Shown here: positions 55,795 through 62,719 of the stretch, piece after piece
How the letters are laid out: each line of letters begins with the position of its first letter
How positions within the stretch are numbered: the first letter of the stretch is position 1
Source of the DNA: Gossypium raimondii
Lineage: Eukaryota; Streptophyta; Magnoliopsida; Malvales; Malvaceae
DNA: 64,000 nt
NCBI RefSeq assembly: GCF_025698545.1
Contig: NC_068575.1
Location: 57,855,980 to 57,919,979 of the forward strand
Direction of reading: 5' to 3'
Made by a program: the position numbers and the translations under genes
The notes under the pieces: generated by a model
What the model saw: the letters and a program-made list of their open reading frames with translations, nothing else
What the model was told of the DNA's origin: nothing
The model's database searches: none

Positions 55795-56125
55795 ATGAAG
55801 AGGGAGGCTCCCCAACAAGGCGTGGTTCGGACTTATCCAGTCCACCTATCTCCTTGGAACCCCAAACCCAAAACCCGAAGTGTACAGACACTCGATTCCC
55901 TCCCGGTTTCTGGATCGTTTTCCAGGGTGACACCAAAGGCCAGCAACCATTCCAAGTTTAGTGGAAAATGTGGGAGGTTACATTGTGTTGAGTATCATTT
56001 AAATCCGGTTAGTAAGTCCAAGGGCAAGTCAAAGGGTACTCAAAAGTTTAGGACATTTAATTTGGCCGGTTTCAATTTTTCCGGGTTTTCTGCCACTGGA
56101 GTATTGGAATATTTGTATAGTTTTA

Positions 56126-56172
<47 letters not shown>

Positions 56173-56394
56173 AATGAGATTGGTAATCATGTCAATGATC
56201 ATGATTATGTCTATGAGGATGTTGGTAGATGCGTTCTTAACGACAACGACAACAATGATGATTTCCTGGCTAAGTTTTGGTCTCTGCATGACAAGCAGAA
56301 CGATGACGACGACGACGATACGAGTTATTGTGATGTGGATTTCATGCTAGACATTGAGGAAGATGAAGGGTGGTGTTTATTGAGAGAACTGTGA
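55795..56394 (+). CDS. Unknown protein with Asp-rich acidic tail
   Basis: A single exon of 199 aa; I do not recognise the family. The N-terminal 90 residues are basic and Ser/Pro/Lys-rich (WNPKPKTRSVQ, SKSKGKSKGTQKF). A short hydrophobic/aromatic stretch follows (FNLAGFNFSGFSATGVLEYL). The C-terminal half is very acidic, with 15 consecutive Asp from a GAT microsatellite, a second DDDDDD run, and the ending FMLDIEEDEGWCLLREL. There is no signal peptide or membrane segment. Support for its being real: a TATA box 74 bp upstream, a 600-bp open frame, codon choice changing from GAT-only to mixed GAT/GAC between the two Asp tracts, and an AATAAAA signal at about 56454. Convergent with the WVD2-like pseudogene. 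Confidence 0.6.
56127..56171. repeat. (GAT)n microsatellite inside the coding region
   Basis: Fifteen GAT units, which give poly-Asp in the + strand frame of the unknown protein. Confidence 0.9.
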
Positions 56395-56589
56395 TTGGCA
56401 GACTCTCTATCTTTCCATGTATTGGCTTTTGTTTGTATTTAGCCTTTTTTCTAAATAAAACAATGCTCTATTAAATACCCAACCAAAAGGTGCGCATACA
56501 AACATGACTTAAAAAGAATTAAAAGGGAATTTCCGGACAGCCTTCTATTTCCATCCAATTTTAGGCATCCAAAGTTGTGTTTAATCTTA

Positions 56590-58669
56590 TCAAATGTGAT
56601 TAGCAGCCATTGCAACTGAAATTTGCTTCTTAAGTGAAGACTTTTGATGGGGAAATGATTATTTGCTTTCCTGGGAGTGGATTTTCTTCCTACGCCAGCT
56701 GATTCTGGTCGTGTCAATGGAATCTATGAAGATGAAGGCGAGAAACTATATAATATACTCGAATTCAAGTGTAAGTGTATTTTTAGTATCATCAGAGATA
56801 AAACTAGATTTGTATACCTTTTGCATTTCATCTTTAATTGTTCCTTCTTTCTTTATAAAAATCTGGAATTGGTCTAGACTTGACGTAGTTTCTTCAGTTC
56901 TGTTTCAGCTTTTTTTCTGCAAATGTTTAATTAGCTCTATAGAACAGGACAAGGTGGTTTTGATTTTTGATCCTATGAAAGATAGAACAAACGATGCTCA
57001 GTTCAGGATTTAAGCACACAAGTTACCTTGAGTGTCGTTTGCTGCTCTACTTTTTGTTCTTGACTTGCATTGAATTTCTCTTCCAGCCTCTGAAAAGGGA
57101 AATATGAAGTAAATTTGAGTGAGTGAATACATACATATGGTAACAACACAAATGTCCATGCCTGTTTTCTTCTTGCAGCTCTCTCTTCAGTTCTCAAACT
57201 GAAAGGTGCAAATATAGCAGGGGACTTGGATTTTTTCATGCAGGCACCATTGTTAACACTTACGTATGTTATTCGGATGCAAGTGTCGGGTAAGATATGT
57301 AACTGACAAGGGCACGTTCAAAATTTTCTAGTTTATCAATGGTCATCCCTATATCTGGATTTGCATCCGACATGGACGTGCCATACTAATACTTCAAAAA
57401 ATTCATAAAAACATAGTCTCTTACAATATTCTTGATCACTATGAAAATTTGTTACTTCTTTTCTGGTTCACAGTAGTGAAAAAAAAAAAAAAAAGGAAGT
57501 TCCTTACTCTGTTGGAAGAAGGTTCCATTTTCCACGAGATGTTTTGCTCACACTGGCTGAGGAATTAAAGGGCGTTCTAGCACTGTAACGCATACATGTG
57601 GAAACATTTCTTAGTAGTTTCAATTTAACTAGCATTTTTCTTAGTCATATATATGTCTGATACCTTCTATTTTCCAACCATGGAGTGGCTAAGGACTGCT
57701 TTGGTCTTCCACTTGTAGAGGCCTGCAGAACATATTAAAAAAAAAACCCAAGTTATCATCCATGGCAAGAACTAGAAAACACAATGACAAAGTTGCAGAG
57801 AAAAAATGATACCATGTTTGAAGTCCTTAAAGGCGTGGGGCATTCTTTAGATGGTTTAAAATTGGAAGCAATTCTAGAACCATCTATCTTTCTAATAATG
57901 GTGGAAGTTAATCTACTGATTTCTTTTGCAGGGGTGGAGTTGATAAACTTATGGCTTGATTTTGGAGTTGATCTCTTTCTATCAGAAATCTTCATTGCAG
58001 ACTTGTTGGACATTGGAGTGACATTATTCCCTTTGTTGGGACGAATAGCAGATGAAGATGGCACTTTGGTTCTTCTTCCATAACTTGACACCTTAAGTAG
58101 AGGTTTCTCCATCTGGGTTTCTTCACTGAGCTCCAATTCCATTCCTTCCTCAAGCTTTCTCGACTGGTTAACCTTCTTCTCGAGATTCTCCACATGGGTT
58201 GCTTCACTAAGCTCCAAATCTTTAATTTCAGCTTCATTCTTCAAATTAATTTCCACAAGAACATTGTGTTCACCAACTGAGTCAGCTCCTTCCACTAAGC
58301 TGCTTTCAAACTCGACAAAATCCGAGTTATTATTCTCTTTACCATCATAAATGGAGCCAGTTTCTTCATGGCCAAGGGCTGCCATTTGAGAGCTTGAGTT
58401 CATTATCTCTGAAACTTGGGTTCCAATATCCTGAACCATACCTTCATTAGCTTTGGCTTGCTCAAGCAGTGCTTTCCTAGCTGCAAGGGTCTTGTAATGA
58501 GCTTCAAAGAAAGCTTTCTTTTGAGCAACTGAACCGGGTCTAGCATATCTCTGAGCCTCTTCTACATATTTTTTGTGAGAAAAAGTTGACTGTTTCTCCC
58601 AAGCTAAGGACTGATCTGACATAAATCTCCCAAAAGATATTGACTGTCCAAGAACAGCAACTGGGTTGC
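56590..58669 (-). pseudogene. WVD2-like (TPX2-domain microtubule protein) pseudogene, 5'-truncated
   Basis: Exon remains in transcript order: 58669-57813, 57722-57664, 57582-57508, about 57235-57162, 57089-57027, 56916-56818, 56723-56590. The first block reads GNPVAVLGQSISFGRFMSDQ then RYARPGSVAQKKAFFEAHYK, typical of the WVD2-LIKE 7 subgroup. Later blocks give FAPFSLRTEERAARRKQ and RLEEKFNASQEQKVEQQTTL of the TPX2 domain. Signs of decay: the usual first exon is absent, and the block begins at a CTATGCAG acceptor with mitochondrial-like DNA about 120 bp away. The acceptor before KKSKSP reads GCATG instead of GCAG. The next donor is GC. An A run shifts the frame before AETELKKLRQ, and codons between LRQ and RPIPDFYKE are missing. 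The last exon is frame-shifted near its end. Exon 1 of the block keeps a 300-codon open frame, so inactivation is recent. A short protein from an internal ATG (58676) cannot be excluded. Confidence 0.75.
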
Positions 58670-58789
58670 CCTGCATAGTTTTCGCATTTCTACAAGTTTC
58701 AAACTCAAAAACTTTGAATAATCTAAAATTATACCCATTTTCAGAAACTCAAAAGATCCATAACAAAAGCAAGTTCAAAACCAGCAGCC

Positions 58790-59760
58790 TTCGCGCCAAG
58801 CAAGACCGCCCTTGTCCCTTTCCTTTCTCCATTCTGCCTCTTTCTTTGCTTTATTCTAATAGAGTCTAAGGCAAAGCAAAAGTAAGTGGTTCGTATGCCT
58901 ACTTGACGAAAGGGAACGAACTTTGTTTCGTTTCCGGGGTTATGGATTGGATTCAGTCAGCGTCACGACATAATCAAAAGGAGGGAGTGACGCTTTGGTT
59001 ACCGGCGAACGCTTCCAAAGTCGACCCTCTCGAGTTTCCGGCTGTTTCCTAGATTGAAGTAGCCTTTCGTCGCCCTAGCAAACGAAAGAAGAACTATCAA
59101 ACAGCTTGCCCTACTGAAGTACCAAAGGTGCGCTCCGCCCGGTGACTAAGGGTGGATTTGGATGAGCGATTGAGTGCGGTGCATTTAGAATTCCCAATAA
59201 AGATATCCCCATAGTCAATCTATTAACTTAGATTGGTATCCCAATAGGAAAAGCATCAATAAGAAAGGGTGAATCACCCATAAAAGCTGTGGAAGTAGGG
59301 GTTTAAGCGAAGAATAGCCCTGCGGAGTTAAGTTGAGAAGTAATAAGCAGCTTAGAAAGCTTCCTTACTAAGTTGCAACTTATTATCCGATTCGCCTTGA
59401 CCCGGATCACATAGCATTAGCGGAGCGATAAACAAAGCTGCAGGAAAGATCTTCTCGATTACATAAGAAAGATAAAGTAATGTTTGTTAGGTCTCTTGAG
59501 GCTACTTCTAGTGGTGAGACTGAAAAAAGAATGAGCATTGACTCTAATCGGCGGAAGATTGATCAATTCTTTTATAACCGCTTTCTCCTCTAAGGCACGT
59601 GAAAGTCGACCCTTCGTGTTCATGCCCCACGGTCTAATAGATGTCTCAAAGAGTGGACTAAAAGAGCGGATATTCCCCTAAGAGCGGAAATCCCGCATCC
59701 AAAAGACTAGCAGCGTATTCGTCGCAAACAGTCTTCTTAGGAATTCTTGCAAGTTTTATT
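58790..59760. other. Probable nuclear insertion of mitochondrial DNA (NUMT)
   Basis: Roughly 970 bp with GC clearly above the surrounding AT-rich DNA and a texture typical of plant mitochondrial spacer DNA: CCTTCGCGCCAAGCAAGACC, GGTGCGCTCCGCCCGGTGAC, TAGCATTAGCGGAGCGATAA. There is no TIR, LTR, poly(A) tail or target duplication. No mitochondrial gene was recognised in it. Borders are approximate. Chloroplast origin is less likely because I see no plastid gene signature. Confidence 0.6.
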
Positions 59761-60191
59761 TCCATCTACCCATCTAATTCTAGGAAACATGCACCAACAA
59801 AATAATCATTTATGTTATTCGGATTTTTTTAACATATTTTAGATATGGATATAGACATTATTATTAAGGTAGGAAGACGTAAATTTGAGTACATTAAAAT
59901 ATATTATATTTCTCTATAATGCGATTGTTAAAAGAAATATAAATATAAAAAATAAATTTATTTATAAAAAATCAATCATTCAAATTACATACATCACCGT
60001 AGTTAGACAAATTCTTTTGTAAATCAAGAATAGATATACATTATCTAAGAGGCAGGTGGGGAAAAATAAAATACATCCATCAATATTTAGTAAAGAGTAT
60101 TTGGTCCTTTAATTATATGAGATCCACGGTTTATCTAATAGTTCCCAATTAGTCCTTATAAAATTTTAAGGGGCAAATTTTATAGTTCCAG
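59761..60191. other. AT-rich intergenic DNA
   Basis: Contains one copy of the dispersed TATGTTATTCGGA motif near 59811. No gene seen. Confidence 0.5.
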
Positions 60192-60572
60192 TAGAGGTGA
60201 TCATGGGTTGGGCTACTCAGCCTGGCCCGATAGCTCGCCCGAAAAATGAGAGGGTTCGGGTAAAAATATAGACTCGAAATATGGATTTAGGCAAAAAAAT
60301 GAGGTCCGTTTAGAAAACGGGCTGGGCCTTAGGTAAAATTTTTTTGGCCCGGTCCGGCCCGAATTATATATTAAATATATATTTTTATTTTTAATCAAAT
60401 ATATATATTTAATATGGGCCGGGTCGGGCTTAGCAATTTTCTTTCGGGCTGAGCTTGGATAAATTTTTAGGCCCATATTTTAGGCCGGTCGGGCTTAGAA
60501 AACGGGCCTAAAGTTTTATCTGGGCCTAACCCGAATTCGAACCTGGCCCGGCCCGGCCCATGATCACCTCTA
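60192..60572. mobile_element. hAT-type MITE, second copy of the 24.5-kb family
   Basis: Termini TAGAGGTGATCATGGG and CCCATGATCACCTCTA. The flanks AGTTCCAG and GTTCCCAG form an imperfect 8-bp duplication. It is 381 bp long. GGCCCGG/CCGGGCC-rich arms match the copy at 24507-24942, which is longer in the centre. Confidence 0.8.
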
Positions 60573-60649
60573 GTTCCCAGGGATAGTGGCATAGTGCTTT
60601 TATTTAAATGCCCATAACAACGACAATGATATTATACTTAAAGTAATTA

Positions 60650-61085
60650 ACTTATTAGTAAATTTACGTTTTGATCATTAAATTATTTAAAAATTTTGTT
60701 TAAGTCATTAAACAGTTAAGTTTTTCTTTAAAAGCTCGACTAGTGATCTCTAAATGATGATTCGATGACCAGTACGATGAATCCGTATCCATTGACGAGT
60801 AGAAGAATATATCTTAAGTCTAAGTTAATTTGACGGTTAATGTCAAAGATCGGAGAAGAAAGTTGTTTAGATTTTGATTTACAAATTTGTGACTTTCAAA
60901 GTTATTTTATGAAAAAAAAATCAAATTGTAGAAGAAAAAGCGTAGAGTTTTTGATTGGTGAAAATGATGCAATCAGAGAAGGCTATACAATAATAATTTT
61001 AAAAGTCTGACGACTTAAATGAAACCTTTTGAATAATAAAATGACTATTTTATAACTTTCGAGTTGAGTAACAAATACTTAATAA
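60650..61085. mobile_element. MITE with long arms, copy 2 (family of 40806-41318)
   Basis: Shares in direct orientation TATCCATTGACGAGTAGAA, GGAGAAGAAAGTTGTTTAGA, AAATTGTAGAAGA and the inverted GACTTAAAT/ATTTAAGTC arm words with copy 1 at 40.8 kb. Non-coding. Confidence 0.65.
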
Positions 61086-61870
61086 TTAGCTAAAACTTTC
61101 AAGACAAATATGTTGTAACCAATACTAATAATAATTAGCTAAAATTTCAAGACAAATATGTTGTAACCAATACTAATAAGGGCAAACTATCAAAATAGTC
61201 ATTTTTATTTACCTCAGGTTAATTTTAGTCACTTATATTTGAAATGTTACATTTTAGTTACTGAGCCGTTAATTGCCATTAATAGTGTAACAGTAAGCTA
61301 ATGTGGCACGTTAAATCATCATTTCAAATAAAAATTTTAGGTTAATTTATACAATTGGTCCCCGTATTTTTTTGTTTTGAGCAATTTAATTTTTTTTCTT
61401 TTATGTTCTTTTAACTTTTTTTTCTTTTTTTTTTCATTCTCTTCTGCTTCTCTCTCTATTTTCCCCCCAAATTTTGACGCTCTTCATGTAAAGCATTTCT
61501 GCATGGTCACTTCCAGCAATCAACAACTCTATGACATGTGCAACTATCCTGATGAAAAGAAAACACAGATATATATATGTCTCAAAAGAATGTACAAGAA
61601 ATTTCAAGCTCTAATTTCATGATAAGCTCTTATTGTTGTAGAACAAAGATATATTGAAATAGCACCCATATAAGGCTCCAAAATTGCACTACTAACAAAC
61701 AATAATATATGAAGATGAAAATATTACAACTCACCAGGGACCAAATCCTTTTAAGCATTCTGCTAATACAACCTAAGAAATATCCAAAGCACAATTTAAT
61801 TTAAGGTTAAGGAATCAAAAGGAAAATTAAGTCAAGCAAAGCTGTACAAAAGTAAGTATTTTGATAATCA
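61086..61870. other. Intergenic DNA with a short imperfect tandem repeat
   Basis: TTTCAAGACAAATATGTTGT recurs at about 61097 and 61145 as part of a roughly 47-bp tandem duplication. 61190-61340 has the look of another MITE (TTTTAGTCACTTATATTTG words). No gene recognised. Confidence 0.5.
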
Positions 61871-61943
61871 TGTTGCTGCCCAGGATCGAACTGGGGACCT
61901 TTAGTGTGTAAGACTAACGTGATAACCACTACACCACAGCAAC
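61871..61943 (-). tRNA. trnV-UAC: tRNA-Val (anticodon UAC)
   Basis: 73 nt and intronless. The acceptor stem GTTGCTG pairs with CAGCAAC, with an A discriminator. A box GTGGTGTAGTGG and B box AGTTCGATCC are present. The anticodon stem TTAGT/ACTAA encloses the loop CTTACAC, giving anticodon TAC (reads GUA, valine). All four arms can be folded. The CCA end is not encoded, as expected for a nuclear gene. Confidence 0.93.
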
Positions 61944-62719
61944 CTTCATGTCAGCCGTAAAAGAATTAATTAGTTCAGTGCATTAACTTTTGGAAACAAA
62001 GCAATCATCCAATTTAACTAAGTGCTGCCATTAACTGACCATTATCGAAACTAATTTGTAAAATTCAAATATTTTCGGTAGCTACAACTTCGATTCACCG
62101 AAACAGATGGAATAATCATTATACCTATGGGTAGATTTTAGAAAATATTTATTCAAAATATAAGAAAAATATTTTTAAAGAAATTAAATATATTTACTTA
62201 TGAATAATTTTTGATAGCCTTTCATATTGTTACAAGGCTGTGACAATTTATATACTCAAATTTGAGTGCAAATGTAAAATATAGATATATTTTTTAAACA
62301 AATACGATTAAATTTTATAATTTTTTTTTACATTTTTAAAAAATAATTTCAAAGTCATATCCTTATGTCTGAAAATGCATCAGACGCGGAATTCGGATGT
62401 ATGGTCCAAGTTAAGAGTTGAAACATGGGCAATCAGGAAGCATTTCAGAAACCCATCGATCACCCCAGCTCTTTTTACATCTCTAACAAATCGCGCTTAA
62501 GACTTGTATTCAATTATTTTAACTTCATTTAAAAACATAAGTATTCCAATTACAAACTCATTTGTACCCAATAACCAGCGCAGTTCTAAAGTAAAATCTC
62601 CTAAACCAATACTTGTAAGCAAGTATAACAGTATAACCGGACCCCGACTCTTAATATGAAGCAATCACTGTTAAAATACCAGAAAACAATAACAATGGCG
62701 TTTATGACATGAAGCTATT
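61944..62719. other. Intergenic region between tRNA-Val and alpha-SNAP
   Basis: AT-rich with the alpha-SNAP 3' untranslated region at its right end. A fragment of a dispersed repeat may lie near 62350-62410. No gene seen. Confidence 0.45.

Follow-up and report, generated by a model that had tools for sequence, protein, structure and literature searches.

Mitochondrial DNA and a MITE terminus upstream of a WVD2-like gene remnant in Gossypium raimondii

Rearranged (mosaic) plant NUMTs, in which pieces from separate parts of an organelle genome are joined in the nucleus, resemble the locus analyzed here on chromosome C11 of G. raimondii, where such pieces likewise lie near a gene. The locus differs from them in the MITE terminus found between the pieces and in its neighboring gene, which lacks a recognisable first exon. 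About 25% of Arabidopsis and rice NUMTs and NUPTs were reported to be located within genes (PMC7037861). Pseudogenised ohnologs also come close, as the gene next to the C11 NUMT has a collinear intact sister on C7 and displays exon loss, a missing splice site and frameshifts; in contrast to them, its decay was polar, with an open middle and both ends gone. The MITE, which we take to be Tourist-like (PIF/Harbinger), shares with that class its length (about 134 bp), GGGTG...CACCC ends, a TAA/TTA target site and hundreds of matches in the genome, whereas the C11 fragment retained only the first 39 nt. Among the literature matches listed on NUMTs and WVD2-like genes, no title described the C11 locus.

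The WVD2-like remnant and its sister on C7

The window, i.e., the whole 64,000-nt stretch of DNA analyzed (C11:57855980-57919979), was taken from an assembly of 750.8 Mb in 281 contigs. A WVD2-like remnant and a SNAP gene (PF14938; 62712-64000, minus strand), presumably alpha-SNAP, were found in the window in the order and the relative orientation that they have on C7, where C7:1045496-1048327 corresponded to window positions 58672-56663 (WVD2-like gene) and C7:1033082-1036135 to positions 65302-62712 (SNAP gene, the C7-matching sequence of which extended past the window end). This collinearity rested on one neighbor, the SNAP gene, and on the WVD2-like gene itself. The C7 sister was an intact WVD2-like paralog with a TPX2 domain (4.2e-15), and its model, built from splice signals without transcripts, had 537 codons in nine exons, with an exon 1 of 69 nt (MGDSTCLMQPFSYTAGLPNEAKE) and an intron 1 of 179 bp. 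Taken together with the course of events favored below, the remnant is probably a pseudogenised duplicate (ohnolog) still at its original position in the duplicated block.

All exons of the remnant lay on the minus strand. Exons 2 and 3 were fused in frame (57813-58670; 858 nt, open over 286 codons, with a donor GT next), intron 2 together with the 5' portion of exon 3 being absent in comparison with the C7 paralog. The start of exon 2 at 58670 was preceded by ...CTATGCAG; the splice acceptor that an earlier note on this DNA had placed at 58669 was thus present, one base away from the exon start. Exon 4 (57664-57722; 59 nt) and exon 5 (57508-57582; 75 nt) were intact with their splice sites, and reading through the exon 5 donor led immediately to a TAA. 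Exons 2 to 5 therefore amounted to 992 nt of open sequence with intact splice sites, and the decay that the same note had ascribed to the rest of the gene was concentrated in exons 6 to 9, where the gene is indeed broken. The exon 6 remnant (57162-57237) was open, with CAT (57240-57238) in place of the paralog's 3' splice site CAG, and the exon 7 remnant (57027-57089) was open as well. The exon 8 remnant (56818-56916), covering the second half of the TPX2 region, carried indels of +1, -14 and +4 nt and a stop at its fourth codon, directly after the first indel, although the indels total -9. Exon 9 (56572-56723) was degraded. The lost exon 6 acceptor and the three exon 8 indels made four lesions in the 247 nt of exons 6 to 8 versus none in the 992 nt of exons 2 to 5 (Fisher p = 0.0015, for a grouping picked after the data were seen).

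The dN/dS ratio against the C7 copy was 0.32 over 313 codons and 0.12 over the first 75, and the WVD2-like gene was therefore long under selection. The N-terminal segment GNPxxxLGQSISFGRF... of the remnant was common to the paralogs. The N-terminus also displayed the private changes E20Q, W27Q and N33K and a 2-residue gap versus no private change in C7, a change being called private where one or more of five further paralogs (of which four were partial in coverage) shared the C7 state; when the count was limited to columns without variation among those paralogs, N33K and one gap column remained versus none in C7. These changes suggest relaxed constraint on the branch of the remnant. Neither the 380- nor the 331-residue reading of the remnant matched TPX2 (PF06886) in Pfam at E<=0.1, and a short exon 6-7 piece, queried in a partly inexact form, reached 18.8 bits for TPX2, under the 25-bit cut-off. 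A count of 21 TPX2 genes was reported for G. raimondii (PMC6678848). By alignment, intron 6 started with GC rather than GT in both WVD2-like copies (57160-57161, minus strand; L011:7219-7220), so that a GC-AG intron 6 seems to have been conserved since the duplication.

Mitochondrial DNA, the MITE terminus and the missing exon 1

Upstream of exon 2, an AT-rich intron-like stretch of 118 bp with 31% GC (58671-58788, minus strand; ending in CAG, with an ATG at 58676-58674 in frame with exon 2) was followed by 947 bp with 45% GC (58789-59735), in agreement with the earlier description of about 120 bp of intron-like sequence and then about 1 kb of higher GC. The next 456 bp had 25% GC. Maximum-likelihood segmentation placed the GC borders at 58781 and 59795, the latter 60 bp past the end of the mitochondrial match. 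Raised GC thus began 118 bp, and the mitochondrial match 224 bp, upstream of exon 2, the NUMT being set on a nuclear chromosome between WVD2-like exon 2 on one side and repeats and the SNAP gene on the other.

The mitochondrial origin that had been proposed for this DNA was confirmed by sequence search for two pieces, both on the plus strand. Piece 2 (59189-59735) was identical to C280:492223-492769 over all 547 positions. Piece 1 (58894-59150), of mitochondrial type, shared 98.8% identity with a C9 NUMT; its part 59032-59150 corresponded to C280:225001-225120, with 117 of 119 positions identical (2 substitutions) and one 1-base gap. At the sites changed in piece 1 the C9 copy agreed with the mitochondrial contig, so the changes most likely arose at the C11 locus. 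The source places of the two pieces on C280 were 267 kb apart; 40 of 112 candidate places were scored in this search, and further copies may exist. Contig C280 (676,078 b) had 43-47% GC in the ten pieces measured, and its two scanned ORFs matched Oxidored_q3 (nad6, 4.6e-29) and Proton_antipo_M (4.9e-54); on the basis of this GC content and of these nad6 and NADH-oxidoreductase transmembrane-family matches, C280 was assigned to a mitochondrial genome of plant type. A G. raimondii mitogenome of 643,914 bp has been published (PMC5683544), and is hence a record distinct from C280. The remaining 105 bp of the higher-GC stretch (58789-58893) had no other match in whole-genome DNA searches, which covered part of the mitochondrial contig, or when viral contigs were scanned for exact 23-nt matches, and are putatively mitochondrial by their position. 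Two more young NUMTs were observed on C9 (L014, C9:15676000-15685999; L015, C9:47213000-47222999), matching the mitochondrial pieces compared over 479 bp (99.8% identity) and 272 bp (100%); they overlapped in part the two mitochondrial source places of the C11 NUMT.

The two pieces did not form the single organelle insertion previously supposed. The upstream block consisted of two mitochondrial pieces and, between them, a MITE terminus (59150-59188, plus strand), i.e., the first 39 nt of a dispersed, TAA-flanked element of about 134 bp. Two of the three MITE copies examined were complete, with 134 bp, a TAA on each side (140 bp) and terminal inverted repeats, while in the third (L008) the exact end motif was absent. 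Searching with 33 nt of the MITE end, up to 2 mismatches being allowed, returned 494 genome matches (245 + 249, the window's own included), several of which begin with TTA. At the junction the mitochondrial sequence was GACTAAGAAAG, and in the window GACTAA ran directly into the MITE, beginning at its exact first base, so that the TAA at 59147-59149 belonged to the mitochondrial sequence and at the same time was the MITE target site. In the simplest reading, the MITE would have entered a TAA of mitochondrial DNA already in the nucleus, and a deletion or a second capture would afterwards have joined it to piece 2. The likely order within this one NUMT would then be a mitochondrial piece, the MITE and a second mitochondrial piece. 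Filler DNA introduced by end joining is disfavored as a substitute for MITE insertion, because the junction coincides precisely with the MITE end and with a TAA of the mitochondrial sequence.

Since the SNAP/WVD2-like block is collinear with C7, exon 1 was expected in 58671-62711, the SNAP gene being the upper limit of the interval. The absence of a first exon, formerly noted for the next kb, held when the search was extended to this next gene. The C7 exon 1 DNA reached a best score of 25 in 58671-62711, attained by 56 of 200 shuffles, versus 83 for an equally long (69 nt) piece of exon 2 used as reference, and the C7 exon-1 peptide reached 29 (39 of 200 shuffles). Exon 1 of the paralog on C3 scored 27 as DNA (95 of 200 shuffles) and 26 as peptide (93 of 200) in the same interval. 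The C7 and C3 exons 1 scored only 38 against each other, and a strongly diverged exon 1 could therefore escape detection; exon 2 of the remnant was less diverged than such an exon 1 would be. In the window extended upstream by 20 kb and in the opposite direction by 10 kb, tblastn with the C7 and C3 exon-1 peptides gave chance-level matches among those listed (at most 30 per peptide; best E 0.23), and when the C7 5' region was searched by blastn, the first 40 matches included exon 1 only at chance level. When C7 exon 1 and its leader were compared as DNA with the whole genome, C7 itself was the only match; this search also missed exon 1 of the C3 paralog, and rules out near copies only. A reading frame beginning MGDS at 59281-59234 was rejected as exon 1, being a chance occurrence inside the part of the NUMT identical to mitochondrial DNA.

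The segment 58671-58893 scored 23 against intron 1 of C7 (196 of 300 shuffles) and 31 against that of C3 (62 of 300); because neither similarity was significant, the segment can be regarded only tentatively as intron 1. The C7 promoter (1 kb upstream of exon 1) scored 83 against 59736-62711, compared with a mean of 68 and a maximum of 85 in 60 shuffles.

Age of the NUMT and order of events

Substitution rates of 6.5e-9 and 2e-10 per site per year were applied to cotton NUMTs in PMC5683544. With these rates, the age of piece 2 was below 0.82 My (95% bound) and that of both pieces pooled was 0.45 My (0.05-1.6), while piece 1 alone, with 2 substitutions in 119 readable sites, gave 2.5 My (0.3-9.1). 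The difference between piece 1 and piece 2 had a Fisher p of 0.006 when 3 events in 119 sites were set against 0 in 547, of 0.03 with 2 substitutions in 119 or 3 events in 257, and of 0.10 with 2 substitutions in 257, which is only suggestive of an older piece 1. Under the assumption that indels occur at 0.1-0.2 of the substitutions, the probability of at least four lesions in exons 6 to 8 was 5e-6 to 0.004 within 0.45-1.6 My (4e-5 to 0.004 at a ratio of 0.2), and 0.016-0.078 at 4 My. As the four lesions exceed what the pooled and piece-2 ages allow, the 3' decay was probably earlier than the insertion; most likely it predates the young piece 2, and it may not be older than the first mitochondrial piece. 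This order of events rests on dating from few changes.

We consider it probable that the duplicate lost its TPX2 end first and its 5' end later, and that the NUMT marks a repaired break. The C11 copy, backed up by C7, would first have lost the TPX2 end; a later double-strand break near exon 1 would have been mended at the cost of exon 1 and promoter, mitochondrial DNA being captured in the process. This would have taken at least two steps, the MITE inserting between them. The NUMT would accordingly be a repair scar, a late or bystander event. No exon 1 was recognisable and the NUMT was present; a causal tie between the two would be conjectural. Since a single genome was compared, loss of exon 1 before, with or after the NUMT is possible in each case: the insertion itself could have deleted exon 1, or it could have landed at an already deleted place, both fitting these data. 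Against the probable account, the open exons 2 to 5 would equally fit a truncated copy that is still expressed.

The proposal of the earlier note, that NUMT insertion with local deletion took exon 1 and promoter from a working gene, the rest of which decayed later, is unlikely. Mitochondrial DNA and the absence of a recognisable exon 1 were found as it had stated, the NUMT adjoins the missing exon, and exons 2 to 5 are still open, as expected of a recent death. The lesions, however, are concentrated at the far 3' end (p 0.0015) and too numerous for the pooled age, and some N-terminal residues common to C7 and other paralogs were already replaced. Insertion as the cause would gain from piece 1 alone, possibly up to 9 My old, as at 4 My and an indel ratio of 0.2 the probability of the lesions rises to 0.078. 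The NUMT is thus not a demonstrated cause of gene death, and the mitochondrial DNA probably did not start the decay; the insertion had little to kill, because the gene was duplicated and its TPX2 end probably failing already. What happened to the WVD2-like remnant is an ordinary kind of gene decay. The case is small and roughly datable: a cause is suggested by the insertion site, but the way the lesions are spread indicates that decay began earlier, at the opposite gene end.

It is very unlikely that the locus is a living shortened gene, transcribed from or before the NUMT and translated from the ATG at 58676-58674 into about 333 residues without a TPX2 domain. The ATG is in frame and the frame stays open across exons 2 to 5 with good splice sites; yet three residues common to C7 and at least one other paralog were replaced, and the remnant gave no Pfam TPX2 match at the threshold that C7 passed by far. 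Organellar DNA was moreover reported as seldom expressed in cotton nuclei (PMC6852956). That the NUMT-MITE block would serve as the 5' end of such a gene, encoding, e.g., a protein regulating the C7 sister, is even less probable; the protein from ATG 58676 would in this case keep the conserved N-terminal WVD2-like segment. An assembly artefact, with mitochondrial sequence misjoined into C11, is highly improbable, as the full identity of piece 2 and a precedent in the genus (a large Chr01 NUMT of G. raimondii judged more likely an artefact in PMC6778788) are opposed by the 2 substitutions and gap of piece 1, absent from the mitochondrial contig and the C9 copy, by source places far apart and by a nuclear MITE terminus between the pieces.

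Other features of the locus

On the plus strand, a 199-codon ORF (55795-56394) with a long Asp run from a GAT repeat lay tail-to-tail with the WVD2-like remnant, and Pfam gave no hit for it at E<=0.1. A second, unrelated element of 381 bp (60192-60572), bounded by 22-nt terminal inverted repeats (91%; TAGAGGTGATCATGGG...), was situated between the NUMT and the next gene, SNAP. It had 44% GC amid AT-rich surroundings, and by its look we take it to be hAT-like. The interval from the NUMT to the SNAP gene also contained a tRNA-Val(TAC) gene (61871-61943, minus strand); in the C7 block, ARAGORN detected no tRNA over the 30 kb examined. A tandem duplication was present at 61093-61131 and 61141-61179, with a 48-bp step and 39-nt copies 97% identical to each other.
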